DNA of 64,000 bases from Candidatus Nitrosomarinus catalina (GTDB taxonomy: Archaea > Thermoproteota > Nitrososphaeria > Nitrososphaerales > Nitrosopumilaceae). The notes below the pieces were generated by a model. That model saw only the letters and a list, made by a program, of their open reading frames with translations, ran no database searches and was not told the DNA's origin. The DNA lies in NCBI RefSeq assembly GCF_002156965.1, contig NZ_CP021324.1, forward strand, positions 344,988 through 408,987, given 5' to 3'. Positions 4,884 to 38,293 of this stretch are shown piece by piece. Position numbers and translations under genes: made by a program. Each line of letters opens with the position of its first letter. Position 1 is the first letter of the stretch.

Positions 4884-7382
4884 ATGACTGTTCCAAGAGT
4901 AAGTTCTGCATTAAAAGCAGTTGATCTTAAACAAATCCCTGCACCTTTGATTATTGGAGAACGAATAAACACTCAAGGTTCTAGAAAAGCCAAAAAATTG
5001 GTTCTTGCTGATGATTTTGATGGTTTAGTTGACTTGGCACGAATTCAAGCTGAAGATGGAGCACATTGTTTGGATGTTTGTGTTGCTACAACTGAACGTT
5101 CTGATGAACGTGAATTTATGTTAACTTTGGTCAAAAAATTAAGTTTAGAAATAGATGCTCCTTTAGTAATTGATTCAACTGATCCCGAAGTAATTGCATC
5201 TTCTGTTAATCAAATTCCTGGTAGACCCATTATCAATTCTATTAATTTAGAGGGGGATGGTAGTAGATTTGAAAAACTAGCTCCCGTAATGGCAAAGTAT
5301 GGGCTACCTGCAATAGCTTTATGCATCGGTCCAAATGGAATGGCAAAAACTCCTCAACAAAAACTAGATACTGCAGAATTACTTTATGAAACCGGTAAAA
5401 ATTATGGATTAAAAATTGAACAATTTATTTTTGATGTACTTACATTTACTTTAGCAACTGGTGAGGATGAATTTCTTGATGCTGGTAAAAATACTTTGGA
5501 AGGAATAAGTCTTGTAAAAGAAAAATTTCCCAATTGTTTTACTACTTTGGGATTAAGTAACATTAGTTTTGGATTGATGCCTTATGCTAGAAAAATTGTT
5601 AATTCTGTATTTTTACATCATGCAGTTAAAGTAGGATTGGATTCTGCAATAGTAAATGCTAAAGAAATTATTCCTTATGGTGAAATTGATTCTAAAGAAA
5701 AAAAATTAGCTGAGGATTTAATTTTTAATACTTATCCTGACGCTTTATCTGAATTAATTTCTTATTTTGAAAAGGCAGGACCTCAAACCAGTAATAATGT
5801 AAAAAAAGTTGATGTTGATCCTTCGTGGCCTCCTGGGAAACGAGCTAATTTTAGAATTGTAAATAGACTCAAAGATGGAATTCAAAATGATGTTGTTTGT
5901 GCAATTGCTGATAAACTTGGAAAAACTGACTTAATTTTAGATAAAGATGGAATATTGAGCCTAGATCTTCCTAAAGATGTGACTCATGCTGGAGCTATCA
6001 AGACTCTCAATGAAGATTTACTACCTGCAATGAAAGAAGTAGGTGATAAGTTTGGAGCAGGCGAATTAATTTTACCATTTGTTTTAAAATCTGCTGAATG
6101 TATGAAGGCCTCTGTTGGGGAACTTGAAAAATATCTAGTCAAGGAAGAAGGAACTAGTAAGGGTAAACTTGTTTTAGGAACAGTTTATGGTGACGTTCAT
6201 GATATTGGAAAAAATTTGGTTAAAACAATTTTTCAAAATAATGGATATTCTGTATATGATTTAGGAAAACAAGTTCCGCTTCAAAAATTCTTAGAAAAAA
6301 TTGATGAGGTAAAACCTGATGCTATCGGTTTATCTGCATTATTGGTTTCAACTTCTAAACAAATGCAATTTTTTGTTGAACATGCCCGAAAAAATAACAT
6401 GACTGTTCCAATTCTTTGTGGAGGAGCTGCAATTAACAGTAATTACATTAATCGAATCGCTAAAGATGGTGGAATTTATGATCCTGGTGTGTTTTATTGT
6501 AATACAATGTTTGAGGGCCTAAAAACTATGGATACCTTAATTTCTGATGACAAACCAAAACTTTTGGAAGAATGGAAGACAAAATTAGAAAATTGGAAGG
6601 AGAAATCAAACACCGATGTTGATCCATCCACTCTTCCAAGAAGTAACGTCCAACCTGTAACTCCCCCTACTCCAAAAATAATTGGTAAACCCATTCGTTT
6701 GAAATTGGATCAAATCAATATGGCGGAAGTTTGGACAATGATTGATAAAAAATCTTTATTCAAATTATCTTGGGGATTGCGTGGAAAAGCAGGTTCTGAA
6801 TCTGAAGAGGAACATGAACAATTACTTACTGAATGGAAAATGAAATTACTACGAGATAAATTAATTGAACCTGAAATTGTGTATGGATATTTCAAATGTC
6901 ATAATAATGGACAAAAATTATTGGTTGAAAATCCTTCTGGAGATGATGTTGAATTTGATTTTCCACGATCTACTCGTCCTGAACATCTGTGTTTGACTGA
7001 TTATTTTGGAGATGATGATATTGTTGCATTCCAATCTGTAACTGTTGGAACAAAGGTTGCAGATGTCCTTGAAAAATGGAATGATGAGGATAAATACTCT
7101 GATGCGTACTATCTTCACGGACTAGCTGTTGAATTAGCAGAAGCTTTAGCACAATGGGTTAATGTAAAAATTAAATCTGAATTAGAGTTAGATAAAGGCG
7201 GTTTGAGATATAGTTGGGGATTTCCTAGTTGCCCTGATGTGTCTCAACATCATTTAGTGTGGAAATTATTGCAACCTGAGAAATCTGGAATGACTATTAC
7301 TGAATCTGGCCAAATCATTCCTGAACAATCTACTGCAGCCATTGTTATTCATCATCCAAATGCACAATATTTTGTAATTTAG
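4884..7382 (+). CDS. metH: cobalamin-dependent methionine synthase, pterin/B12/activation domains
   Basis: This holds the remaining MetH modules in order: a methyltetrahydrofolate (pterin)-binding barrel (~15-290), a cobalamin cap helix region (~330-425), a B12-binding Rossmann domain with the DxHxxG motif (Asp437, His439, Gly442; the His is the expected lower cobalt ligand), and a C-terminal AdoMet-dependent reactivation domain (~620-832) recognised by RYSWGFPSCPD. It lacks the homocysteine domain, which the preceding gene supplies. AOA synthesise cobalamin, which fits a B12-dependent enzyme. The gene ends exactly where the convergent MetF-like gene ends. Confidence 0.95.
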   Translation: MTVPRVSSALKAVDLKQIPAPLIIGERINTQGSRKAKKLVLADDFDGLVDLARIQAEDGAHCLDVCVATTERSDEREFMLTLVKKLSLEIDAPLVIDSTDPEVIASSVNQIPGRPIINSINLEGDGSRFEKLAPVMAKYGLPAIALCIGPNGMAKTPQQKLDTAELLYETGKNYGLKIEQFIFDVLTFTLATGEDEFLDAGKNTLEGISLVKEKFPNCFTTLGLSNISFGLMPYARKIVNSVFLHHAVKVGLDSAIVNAKEIIPYGEIDSKEKKLAEDLIFNTYPDALSELISYFEKAGPQTSNNVKKVDVDPSWPPGKRANFRIVNRLKDGIQNDVVCAIADKLGKTDLILDKDGILSLDLPKDVTHAGAIKTLNEDLLPAMKEVGDKFGAGELILPFVLKSAECMKASVGELEKYLVKEEGTSKGKLVLGTVYGDVHDIGKNLVKTIFQNNGYSVYDLGKQVPLQKFLEKIDEVKPDAIGLSALLVSTSKQMQFFVEHARKNNMTVPILCGGAAINSNYINRIAKDGGIYDPGVFYCNTMFEGLKTMDTLISDDKPKLLEEWKTKLENWKEKSNTDVDPSTLPRSNVQPVTPPTPKIIGKPIRLKLDQINMAEVWTMIDKKSLFKLSWGLRGKAGSESEEEHEQLLTEWKMKLLRDKLIEPEIVYGYFKCHNNGQKLLVENPSGDDVEFDFPRSTRPEHLCLTDYFGDDDIVAFQSVTVGTKVADVLEKWNDEDKYSDAYYLHGLAVELAEALAQWVNVKIKSELELDKGGLRYSWGFPSCPDVSQHHLVWKLLQPEKSGMTITESGQIIPEQSTAAIVIHHPNAQYFVI

Positions 7383-33992: not shown

Positions 33993-35117
33993 ATGGTTGC
34001 CATAGATCAGGTTCTTGAAAAATTAAGTACTGTTATTGATCCTGATTTGAAAAAAGATATTGTTTCTATGGGAATGATTAAAGATTTAGAACTTAATGAT
34101 GGAAATCTCAAATTTACTTTAGAACTTACTACTCCTGCATGTCCTTTCAATGTAGAAATTGAAGATGATGTGAGAAAAGTAATTGCTGAATTATCTGACT
34201 TGAAAGCTTTTGATTTGAATGTAACTGCCAAAGTAATGGAGGGTCGTTCACTTGAAGCAGACACCCAAATGGCAACTGTCAAGAATATTATCGGTGTTGC
34301 CAGCGGTAAAGGTGGTGTAGGCAAATCCACTGTATCATTAAACTTGGCTCTTGCATTATCTCAAACTGGAGCAAAAGTTGGATTACTTGATGCCGATATC
34401 TATGGACCTAGTATTCCGTTGATGTTGGGAATGGAAGATGGTTCAATGGAAGTTGAAGATAATAAACTTCAACCTGCAGATGTTAATGGATTAAAAGTAG
34501 TATCTTTTGGCTTTTTTGCAGATCAATCTAAACAAGCTGCAATATATCGTGGCCCTATTATTTCTGGAATTTTAAAACAATTTTTGGTTGACACTAATTG
34601 GTCCGAATTAGATTATCTAATTGTTGATCTTCCACCTGGAACTGGTGACATTCCATTAACTCTTGCACAAACAATTCCAATTACTGGAATTCTTGTTATC
34701 ACTACTCCTCAGGATGTTGCAAGTAATGTTGCAGTAAAAGCAGTTTCAATGTTTGAAAAACTTAATGTTCCTATTATCGGGGTGATTGAAAATATGAGTC
34801 ATTTTGTTTGTCCAAAATGTGATGATAAACATTACATCTTTGGAAATGGTGGAGCTAAAAAAATTAGTGAACAATTCAAAATTCCATTTTTGGGTGAAAT
34901 CCCATTAAATTATGGAATTATGTCTGGTTCTGATTCTGGAAAGCCAATCATGAGCACAAATACTGATTCACCAAGTGCTGAAGCATTTCGTGCTAGTGCA
35001 AAAAATGTTGCTGCACAATGTAGTATCATTGCATCTAATTTACAAGAAGAAATGGAATCTGAATCTGGTGACTCTGAATCATCTAATGAAGATTCTACAA
35101 ATAACGGCACTTCTTAA
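33993..35117 (+). CDS. Mrp/NBP35-type iron-sulfur carrier ATPase with MIP18 domain
   Basis: Residues ~1-90 are a MIP18/DUF59 domain (MVAIDQVLEKLSTVIDP), and ~95-350 a P-loop domain with the deviant Walker A GKGGVGKSTVS and LLDADIYGPSIP. A C-terminal CPKC pair is the expected bridging [4Fe-4S] site of the dimer. It is thought to carry Fe-S clusters to target proteins. The last ~20 residues are an acidic Ser/Glu/Asp tail. Abundant in AOA. Confidence 0.9.
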   Translation: MVAIDQVLEKLSTVIDPDLKKDIVSMGMIKDLELNDGNLKFTLELTTPACPFNVEIEDDVRKVIAELSDLKAFDLNVTAKVMEGRSLEADTQMATVKNIIGVASGKGGVGKSTVSLNLALALSQTGAKVGLLDADIYGPSIPLMLGMEDGSMEVEDNKLQPADVNGLKVVSFGFFADQSKQAAIYRGPIISGILKQFLVDTNWSELDYLIVDLPPGTGDIPLTLAQTIPITGILVITTPQDVASNVAVKAVSMFEKLNVPIIGVIENMSHFVCPKCDDKHYIFGNGGAKKISEQFKIPFLGEIPLNYGIMSGSDSGKPIMSTNTDSPSAEAFRASAKNVAAQCSIIASNLQEEMESESGDSESSNEDSTNNGTS

Positions 35118-35128
35118 TTGAGATTCCT

Positions 35129-35623
35129 GTGAAATTACCTGATTCTATTAGAGACCAATTCAAAACTCCTTTAGGTATTTTATTGCCAATTGGAGAAGAT
35201 AATAAAGAAAATATTCAAAAATATCTCTCAAAAAATTCCTATGTCGTAACCGTTGGAGATCAAACTACTGAAAAAATGATTAATTTTGGATTAACTCCTT
35301 CTTTGCAAATTATTGATGGTTTTGAGAAAAGACAAAAACGTGATTTGCCAAAACTTGGAAATGCCACTGAATTGAAAATTGATAATCCTGCAGCTGAAAT
35401 TACTTTGGAAAGTATTGACTTGATCAAAAAAGCATTTACTATGACTTCTCCTGTTAGAATAACTGTGTTTGGTGAAGAAGATTTGTTAGTACTTCCTGTT
35501 TGTATTCATGCTCCTGACAATTCAGTTGTCCTATATGGCCAGCCAAATGAGGGGCTTGTTTTAGTTGAAATTACTACAGAAATTAGAAATAAAGCACAAA
35601 CATTACTTGATCTAATGAACTAA
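35129..35623 (+). CDS. GTP-dependent dephospho-CoA kinase (DUF359 family)
   Basis: A 164-residue protein of the archaeal DUF359 family that performs the last step of CoA synthesis using GTP. Recognisable are GDQTTEKMINFGLTPSLQIIDG and VLYGQPNEGLVLVEI segments. It starts with GTG at 35129, 12 nt downstream of the Mrp gene, so probably co-transcribed. Its stop codon is immediately followed by the candidate C/D box sRNA. Confidence 0.88.
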   Translation: MKLPDSIRDQFKTPLGILLPIGEDNKENIQKYLSKNSYVVTVGDQTTEKMINFGLTPSLQIIDGFEKRQKRDLPKLGNATELKIDNPAAEITLESIDLIKKAFTMTSPVRITVFGEEDLLVLPVCIHAPDNSVVLYGQPNEGLVLVEITTEIRNKAQTLLDLMN

Positions 35624-35624
35624 T

Positions 35625-35683
35625 GGGGTGTGATGAGACGGTGGCTGTATGATTCGTGATTACCCCACATAACCTCTGACCCT
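35625..35683 (+). ncRNA. candidate C/D box sRNA (rRNA/tRNA 2'-O-methylation guide)
   Basis: Elements in correct order: C box GTGATGA (35630-35636), a 12-nt guide, D'-like ATGA (35649-35652), a 3-nt spacer, C'-like GTGATTA (35656-35662), a 13-nt guide and D box CTGA (35676-35679). The flanking GGGG (35625-35628) and CCC (35680-35682) can form the terminal stem. The length of ~59 nt is typical of archaeal C/D sRNAs. It begins 2 nt after the dephospho-CoA kinase stop, so it may be released from that mRNA. Guide targets were not determined. Confidence 0.65.
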
Positions 35684-35840
35684 ATTTATTCATAATTTTA
35701 CGAAATCAAAATCAACCAATCGTCTTACAAAAATTTGTACGTTTTCGTTAATGGTTGTTTTTAAGAGTTAACGAAAAGCTGACCATTTGCTTACAAGAAT
35801 TGACATTTCAAGATAAAGATAGATTGCTTTACAACAAACT

Positions 35841-36218
35841 ATGAAACTAGATGATGATCTAAAGTTACAAATTTTAGAAAAAGTTGGAATATACTCCCAA
35901 AGGTTTTCCATTCCTGAACCTGTGATTTTGTTAACTACAAAAGAAGTTCTTGATGCTCCCAGAGAAATGACTGAAGGTAGACGAACATCTGCTTACAAAT
36001 ACTATGGTGTTTCTTATTTACAACATAATTTGGTTTTTCTTAATGTTAGAAAAATTCCTGATGAAAAAACACTTGAAAACACACTTGTTCATGAATTAAT
36101 TCATATGCGATTTCCTTATCTTGCACATGGAAAACGATTCAATAAATTAGTTAGACAAGGATTAAAAGGAAAAACCTTCTCTCCTTATAAAAAAAGAAGT
36201 AAAATTCCTTCTTTTTGA
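35841..36218 (+). CDS. SprT-like zinc metalloprotease-fold protein
   Basis: A 125-residue protein with the zinc-binding HExxH motif in LVHELIHMRFPYLAHGKRFNKL, where the later His in AHGKRF may be the third ligand, as in SprT/wss1-type minimal proteases. The basic tail (KKRSKIPSF) may bind nucleic acid. Catalytic activity and substrate are inferred from the motif only. It overlaps the TTG start of the pyrophosphatase gene by 4 nt. Confidence 0.75.
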   Translation: MKLDDDLKLQILEKVGIYSQRFSIPEPVILLTTKEVLDAPREMTEGRRTSAYKYYGVSYLQHNLVFLNVRKIPDEKTLENTLVHELIHMRFPYLAHGKRFNKLVRQGLKGKTFSPYKKRSKIPSF

Positions 36219-38293
36219 TTAATACTTTTAAGATTGAACTAACTCAATATACTGTGGATATTTCTGAGGTTCTGCCTTTCATAGCTGGAATTGCATCTTT
36301 TCTTGTAGCTGGTGGTTTAGTTGCTTGGATTACCAAACAACCTTCTGGTAGCAAAGAAATGATGGATATCTCAAATGCTGTAAAAGAAGGAGCTTCTGCA
36401 TTTTTAAGACGTGAAATGAAAATTATTGTTCCTGTCGCAATTGCACTTTCAGTCATTATTGGTGCCTTTTTACAACCATCCAACGGAATCGCATTTGCAG
36501 TTGGTGCAGCATTATCTGCAGTTGCAGGAATTATTTCATTAAAAATTACAGTAAAAGCAGCAGTAAGAGCTGCAAATCTAAGTAGTGAAGGTCTTGGAAA
36601 AACATTTGCTATGGCGTTTCGGGGTGGAGCCACCGTTGGATTAGCAGTACCTGCAATGGCTCTTTTGGCAATTACTGGTTTGTATTTAATTTACCCTGAT
36701 CCAATTACAATTGCAGGAGTGGGAATTGGTGCAAGTCTAATTGCATTATTCATCAGGATCGGTGGTGGCATTTTTACAAAGGCAGCTGATATGGGCGCTG
36801 ATTTAGTTGGTAAAGTTGAAGCAAATATTCCTGAAGATGATCCTAGAAATCCTGCTACTATTGCCGATAATGTTGGTGATAATGTTGGTGATGCAGCTGG
36901 AATGGGTTCTGATGTTTATGAATCCTATATCGTAACAATACTTGCTGCATTACTAATTGCTGCATTAATTGGTGCACCAAACTTTTTCCTTTATCCGATT
37001 TTAATTGGTTCTTCTGGAATGATTGCATCCATAATTGGTGTTGTAATTGTTGGTTCAAAGGGTGTAACTGATGTCATGAAACCCCTTAATCGTTCATTCT
37101 ATGTTTCAGCTGCAATTGCAATTGGATTAAACTATGTTTTCATTACACAATTTATTGATCAATCTTCAACTGCACTTGCTTTGTTTGGAACTACTGTAAT
37201 TGGTGTCATACTAGTTCCTGTCATTCAAAAAATTACTGATAATTATACTAGTTACAAAAAAGGCCCAGTTAAAGAAATTGCAGATTCTGCAAAATGGGGT
37301 TATGCATCATTAACTTTAATGGGAATAATCAAAGGAATGCAATCAACTGGACCATTCATGATTGCACTAGTTGTTGCAATTATCATCTCGTACTCTATTG
37401 CTTCTTCTGCAGCTCCTGAAGGTGCAGATCCAGTACTTTATGGCATTTTTGGAACTTCTTTGACTGCAATGGCAATGTTGAGTCTTGCTGGAATAGTTCT
37501 AAGTATTGATGCATTTGGTCCAATTGCTGATAATGCAGGAGGAATTGTTGAAATGACTGGAATGGGTGAAGAAAATCGAAAAGTAACTGATGAAATTGAT
37601 GCTGTTGGAAATACAACTAAAGCAGTAACTAAGGGATTTGCGATAGCTAGTGCTGCCCTGGCTGCATTAGCTATGATTCAAGCTTTTCAATTTGAAGCAG
37701 CCCATATTTTTGAAGGTGTTTTGGAATTAAATTATAGTTTAACAAATCCCGCAATAATTGTTGGATTGTTAGTTGGTGGTCTAATTCCATTTATTATAAC
37801 TGGTCAATTGATCAATGGTGTTTCTAGAGCTGCAGGTAAAATGGTAGATGAAGTTAGAAGACAATTCAAAGCTGATCCTGGTATTCTTGCAGGAACTTCA
37901 AAACCTGATTATGCAAAGTGTGTTGATATTGCAACTGTTGCTTCGATTAGAGAATTATGGAAACCTGCAATCGTTGCAATTATTTCACCTATAATTTTGG
38001 GAATTTTACTGGGTCCTACTGCAGTTGCTGGTTTGTTAATGGGTGCAGTTGTAACTGGAATTTTACTAGCATATCATTTAGCAAATACTGGTGGTGCATG
38101 GGATAATGCAAAGAAATTGGTTGAAATGAAAGGTGAGAAAGGTTCTGAAGTTCATAAAGTTGCAGTGGTTGGTGATATTATTGGTGATCCTTACAAAGAT
38201 ACTGCAGGACCTGCACTAAATACCGTAATCAAATTACTAAATACTATAGCAATTGTATTTGTATCTGCATTTGTCGCAATTCTTTCAATTTAA
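36215..38293 (+). CDS. hppA: membrane-bound proton-pumping pyrophosphatase (K+-independent type)
   Basis: A 692-residue protein with ~16 transmembrane helices that couples pyrophosphate hydrolysis to cation pumping. The pyrophosphate site is seen in DNVGDNVGDAAG (from Asp218), EANIPEDDPRNPATI and the C-terminal GDTVGDPYKDTAGPALN-like segment. In GNTTKA the residue that decides potassium dependence is Lys469 rather than Ala, which marks the K+-independent, H+-pumping class. Starts with TTG at 36215, overlapping the previous gene. It would recover energy from pyrophosphate released in biosynthesis. Confidence 0.95.
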   Translation: MINTFKIELTQYTVDISEVLPFIAGIASFLVAGGLVAWITKQPSGSKEMMDISNAVKEGASAFLRREMKIIVPVAIALSVIIGAFLQPSNGIAFAVGAALSAVAGIISLKITVKAAVRAANLSSEGLGKTFAMAFRGGATVGLAVPAMALLAITGLYLIYPDPITIAGVGIGASLIALFIRIGGGIFTKAADMGADLVGKVEANIPEDDPRNPATIADNVGDNVGDAAGMGSDVYESYIVTILAALLIAALIGAPNFFLYPILIGSSGMIASIIGVVIVGSKGVTDVMKPLNRSFYVSAAIAIGLNYVFITQFIDQSSTALALFGTTVIGVILVPVIQKITDNYTSYKKGPVKEIADSAKWGYASLTLMGIIKGMQSTGPFMIALVVAIIISYSIASSAAPEGADPVLYGIFGTSLTAMAMLSLAGIVLSIDAFGPIADNAGGIVEMTGMGEENRKVTDEIDAVGNTTKAVTKGFAIASAALAALAMIQAFQFEAAHIFEGVLELNYSLTNPAIIVGLLVGGLIPFIITGQLINGVSRAAGKMVDEVRRQFKADPGILAGTSKPDYAKCVDIATVASIRELWKPAIVAIISPIILGILLGPTAVAGLLMGAVVTGILLAYHLANTGGAWDNAKKLVEMKGEKGSEVHKVAVVGDIIGDPYKDTAGPALNTVIKLLNTIAIVFVSAFVAILSI

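Follow-up and report, generated by a model that had tools for sequence, protein, structure and literature searches.

Positions 35625–35683 of the window (by which we mean the whole stretch analysed, 64 kb of a complete archaeal genome of 1.36 Mb) encode a real and conserved C/D box sRNA of the archaeal type, with helix 18 of 16S rRNA as its likely target. Taken as a whole, the reading that this sRNA is probably derived from the mRNA of a dephospho-CoA kinase, and that its D' guide methylates C456 in helix 18, seems to us to have a good probability of being right.

Anatomy of the element

The boxes C, D', C' and D follow one another on the plus strand with spacings of 12, 3 and 13 nt, and on direct reading all the spacings and coordinates of the original prediction were correct. 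The C box GTGATGA (35630–35636) is followed by the 12-nt D' guide GACGGTGGCTGT (35637–35648), the D' box ATGA (35649–35652), a 3-nt spacer TTC (35653–35655), the C' box GTGATTA (35656–35662), the 13-nt D guide CCCCACATAACCT (35663–35675) and the D box CTGA (35676–35679). As in archaeal C/D box sRNAs generally, the C (RUGAUGA) and D (CUGA) boxes lie near the two ends, and the guide spacings of 12 and 13 nt fall within the usual archaeal range of about 10–14 nt. A terminal stem of GGGG with CCC had also been proposed (GGGG is at 35625–35628, and CCCT follows the D box at 35680–35683). Such a stem is present, and it is longer than had been claimed: in the k-turn register, with a single unpaired base (U35629) between stem and C box, AATGGGG (35622–35628, plus strand) and CCCTATT (35680–35686, plus strand) make the 7-bp stem AAUGGGG/CCCUAUU, which therefore overlaps the UAA stop codon of the gene upstream (TAA, 35621–35623), covering its last two bases. 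Outside this stem, RNA folding closed a further pairing, AUGAA/UUCAU (35615–35619 with 35690–35694), that involves the last codons of the upstream gene; a similar downstream sequence, ATTAATTCAT, in many members of the genus suggests that this outer complementarity is kept.

In a scan allowing loose spacing, this was the sole C–D'–C'–D arrangement in the window. Shuffled windows (100 shuffles) gave a mean of 0.04 such arrangements when no stem was required, and no match in them had a stem of at least 3 bp, the stem of the real element having 7 bp. At the Rfam gathering threshold, the only match in the whole window was a tRNA, and a scan for sigma-70-type promoters and for terminators, of a type not suited to archaea, gave nothing useful. 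Two of the proteins that accompany archaeal C/D box sRNAs are encoded in the genome: genes for fibrillarin (E = 4e-91) and a Nop protein (Nop5; E = 1e-68) lie about 430 bp apart.

Conservation across the Nitrososphaeria

Relatives that share the gene order have kept the boxes, the spacing, the D' guide and the stem, the last with compensatory changes, which is the outcome on which the original prediction had staked itself. Among 121 genomes of the family, blastn gave matches at E ≤ 1 in 115, strong in most, the weakest being chance. From these, 70 loci representing 21 genera were parsed, each with all four boxes kept: the C box is RTGAKGA and the D box CTGA in every one, C' is RTGATTA in 62, and the C–D' spacing is exactly 12 nt throughout (the parser required ATGA at D' and GGTGGCTG, the loci themselves having come from the unbiased blastn search). 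At the level of the class, 227 of 300 genomes had matches to a 22-base pattern when at most one mismatch was allowed, a reversed-pattern control giving close to none, and the matches span Nitrosopumilaceae, Nitrosocaldaceae, Nitrososphaeraceae, a family here called f5, and f17, a family of another order. Hardly any change is seen in the core of the D' guide, CGGTGGCTGT, among the three named families and f17. Numbering the guide from box D' (N1, N2 and so on), the pattern behind the class set of 164 distinct sequences fixed the C–D' spacing and N3–N9, so the invariance of N3–N9 in that set is partly by construction; the family blastn is free of this.

A covariance model added family f13 and more members of f17. 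Applied to 54 pattern-negative genomes, it added clear members in G026, G134, G144 and G299 alone, and under strict filters it found none in families f4, f6, f7, f9 and f10. A gapped CTGA pattern had no matches in 398 genomes of the phylum, a null result that is uninformative because the sample held no known positive for the exact pattern. Pattern matches in bacteria lack the C'/D half, and we dismissed them as chance. The sRNA core occurs twice, in identical copies, in each of two genome bins (G052, on C11 and C26; G203, on C58 and C60), perhaps through duplication or the mixing of bins.

The terminal stem shows compensatory changes on both sides in all five modelled pairs across the class, at a score reached in none of 500 shuffles. 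All slid registers of the stem score lower than the k-turn register in the class alignment, and the family alignment gives the same covariation outcome.

In a canonical k-turn, the C at position 1 of box D pairs with the G at position 6 of box C. The D' and C' boxes of the element had been described as imperfect; they are indeed variant (ATGA and RTGATTA), yet they are conserved and mutually pairing rather than simply imperfect, as A1 of D' can pair with U6 of C' in place of the C–G pair. A–U is the rule at these positions among the 164 distinct sequences, others having C–G, U–G or G–C, and the exceptions (12 sequences with non-pairing combinations and three with A–G) mean that the compensation is real but not strict.

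Linkage to a DUF359 gene

Immediately upstream lies a gene for a DUF359 protein (35129–35623, plus strand; Pfam PF04019, E = 2.7e-35), of the GTP-dependent dephospho-CoA kinase family, so that the naming of this gene as a dephospho-CoA kinase holds at family level. It is flanked, in order, by genes for an ApbC/NUBPL-type P-loop ATPase (33993–35117) before it and, beyond the sRNA, for a SprT-like protein (35841–36218), both recognized by domain search, and a protein that on inspection of its sequence resembles a membrane pyrophosphatase (36215–38293).

Outside f17, 117 loci were oriented, some genomes contributing two of them; in 114 a DUF359 gene is immediately upstream on the same strand. The position of its stop codon ranges from 28 nt upstream of box C to inside the sRNA: eight loci terminate at the first UGA within box C, and the reading frame of 11 (L065, L066, L133, L169–L172 and others) stays open across box C and the D' guide and is closed by the UGA of the D' box. 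In loci of these two kinds the sRNA and the C-terminus of the protein therefore share bases. The f17 loci have different flanking genes and are not behind DUF359; their boxes and guide are kept. In archaea it is common for C/D genes to overlap open reading frames at their 3' ends, to be cut from longer transcripts and to have stop codons within box motifs (PMC7994747), and this published pattern, taken with the tight linkage to DUF359, makes transcription as part of the mRNA likely. The gene order is thus consistent with an sRNA that is likely to be transcribed within the DUF359 mRNA and excised from its 3' end.

A predicted target in helix 18

Both guides were searched against 16S rRNA, 23S rRNA and 43 tRNA loci of the same genome, a check that had been proposed for the two together and that came out differently for each: a probable target in helix 18 emerged for the D' guide, and none was found in its own genome for the D guide. 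The best site for the D' guide is 16S 452–463, TCAGCCGCCGCG, in the 530 loop (helix 18), where N2–N10 pair unbroken with CAGCCGCCG through eight Watson–Crick pairs and one G–U pair at N7. N5, the fifth base from box D', faces C456 (E. coli C522), which is predicted to become Cm.

Taken alone, the guide of this genome finds an equally good site in 37 of 100 shuffled target sets. When 32 distinct D' guides were scored jointly, helix 18 stayed the top site, at a level reached by 11 of 500 shuffles; it is thus the variation of the guide across families that supports the target, a single genome not being enough. N10 is C in 133 of the 164 sequences, T in 30 and A in one; G527 can pair with either pyrimidine. 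Other families have G at N11, which pairs with C528, and U or C at N12, which pairs with G529, and so would form duplexes of 10–12 pairs. C at N7 in Nitrosothermus koennekii and in G299 (an f13 genome) turns the G–U pair into G–C. Counting against the target are the G–U pair at N7, which nearly every lineage keeps, and the A at N2 in five sequences, which gives an A–C mismatch. The target sequence in 16S rRNA is identical in every genome from which the helix 18 region was extracted (leaving out G001, where extraction took an unrelated stretch).

The same complement of helix 18 occurs as the D guide (CGTGGCGGCTGT or GGCGGTGGCTGG) of unrelated C/D sRNA-like arrangements in Sulfolobales Acd1 (L204, about 80–140) and a Thermoprotei metagenome-assembled genome (L235, about 4890–4950), laid out as C–guide–CTGA–3 nt–C'–guide–CTGA, which suggests independent targeting of the same site. 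Helix 18 is a hotspot of predicted archaeal C/D-guided 2'-O-methylation (PMC4644070). Judged from guide and target sequences, the D' guide most likely directs 2'-O-methylation to helix 18, in the decoding centre.

The D guide and its apparent retargeting

The D guide is variable among relatives, even within the genus. Nothing above chance was found for it in its own 16S, 23S and tRNAs; the best site, GGTTATG in tRNA-Val, was rejected, 160 of 200 shuffles being as good. Pooled D guides of Nitrososphaeraceae gave no common target. In f17 the D guide is conserved (GAAGCGAC; L119–L127) and makes nine Watson–Crick pairs with CGUCGCUUCA in helix 44, N5 falling at E. coli 1408 (4 of 500 shuffles), and the D guide of genus g24 matches helix 41, GCAAUGGUAAGG (9 of 200 shuffles), each test using the 16S of the lineage itself with the 23S and tRNAs of the Nitrosomarinus catalina genome. 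The g24 guide TTTTACCATTGT (L151 and L152) can pair with GCAATGGTAAGG in helix 41 over 12 positions, G–U included (L181:2676, + orientation).

With a variable D guide and matches particular to lineages, the second guide thus appears to have been retargeted by lineage while the first was held, and the complementarity to helix 44 means that in f17 one sRNA could touch both helix 18 and helix 44 of the decoding centre. A tentative and on balance unlikely extension is that the ancestral sRNA guided helix 18 (C522) together with another site in the decoding centre or 3' domain, as a chaperone for assembly of the 16S decoding centre. If so, f17 would have kept both helix 18 (D') and helix 44 near 1408 (D), and ammonia oxidizers would have frozen the helix 18 guide as the other drifted.

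Other explanations

The most serious alternative is a C/D sRNA whose D' guide serves some other RNA (tRNA, mRNA, 23S or another), the helix 18 match being coincidental. Non-ribosomal targets are known for archaeal C/D sRNAs (PMC7994747), a site in tRNA-Ser(CGA) pairs with N1–N8, and the helix 18 match is not significant in the single genome; we nevertheless think this improbable, as the multi-guide test favours helix 18, the N7 and N10 changes in other families preserve pairing there, and the alternative sites fail to cover the invariant N2–N10. It is much less probable again that the element is merely a conserved structure in the 3'-UTR of the kinase mRNA, with no separate guide RNA, such as a k-turn through which L7Ae regulates that mRNA. 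L7Ae is known to bind k-turns in mRNAs, and the closeness with which the element is tied to the DUF359 stop codon and the extra flanking complementarity would fit, but an mRNA element needs neither two k-turns with spacers of guide length nor a near-frozen 12-nt guide, and the f17 sRNA has retained boxes and guide away from DUF359.

We give almost no credence to a chance arrangement of boxes, or to conserved coding or regulatory DNA. In the 11 loci where the DUF359 frame reaches the D' box part of the element is coding, yet it is conserved also where it is non-coding, the expectation by chance in the window is very low, and the compensatory changes in the stem have no counterpart among the shuffles.

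How the sRNA may act

For the preferred reading, a C/D box sRNA guiding methylation of helix 18, we infer expression, processing, RNP assembly and methylation from sequence, as follows. Transcription of the dephospho-CoA kinase gene would probably yield the sRNA as the 3' end of the mRNA; the C/D and C'/D' motifs would each fold into a kink-turn or a kink-loop, to which L7Ae would bind; the resulting RNP would recruit Nop5 and fibrillarin, and the RNA would be trimmed to the boxes and terminal stem. Pairing of the D' guide with the 530 loop would then place a 2'-O-methyl group on C456, opposite the fifth guide base from D', and the sRNA may also help to fold the pseudoknotted helix 18 region. 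The D guide would have no conserved job in this lineage, having apparently been retargeted in others.

Box order, k-turn/k-loop geometry, guides of about 12 nt, predicted N+5 targeting of 16S helix 18 and a location overlapping an open reading frame at its 3' end are all shared with known archaeal C/D box sRNAs. The differences are the ATGA/RTGATTA combination at D'/C' (A–U for C–G) and a guide that has barely changed throughout a class, in contrast to the usually rapid change of archaeal guides (PMC7994747). The Rfam family RF01140 (sR20) aligns over its full length and has the same ATGA–UUCG–TGATT layout of D'/C', but the score of the element, 23.7 bits, is below the gathering cut-off of 44 bits and the guides differ, so it is not a member. 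Known guides for helix 18 likewise direct methylation within this helix, but at E. coli A535 and G515 and in thermophiles, whereas the position predicted here is C522 and the organisms are mesophiles; Methanococcus maripaludis, the one mesophile surveyed, has no predicted helix 18 site (PMC4644070). In the open-access literature searched, we found no description of a C/D sRNA for ammonia-oxidizing archaea (Nitrososphaeria).

Archaeal guides are reported to evolve fast, yet this one is almost the same in Nitrosopumilus, Nitrososphaera, Nitrosocaldus and another order. The locus is also a clear example of a gene for a guide RNA that is tied to the stop codon of one mRNA. For the biology of these archaea, it predicts that helix 18 would be methylated in mesophiles, at a single, testable nucleotide.
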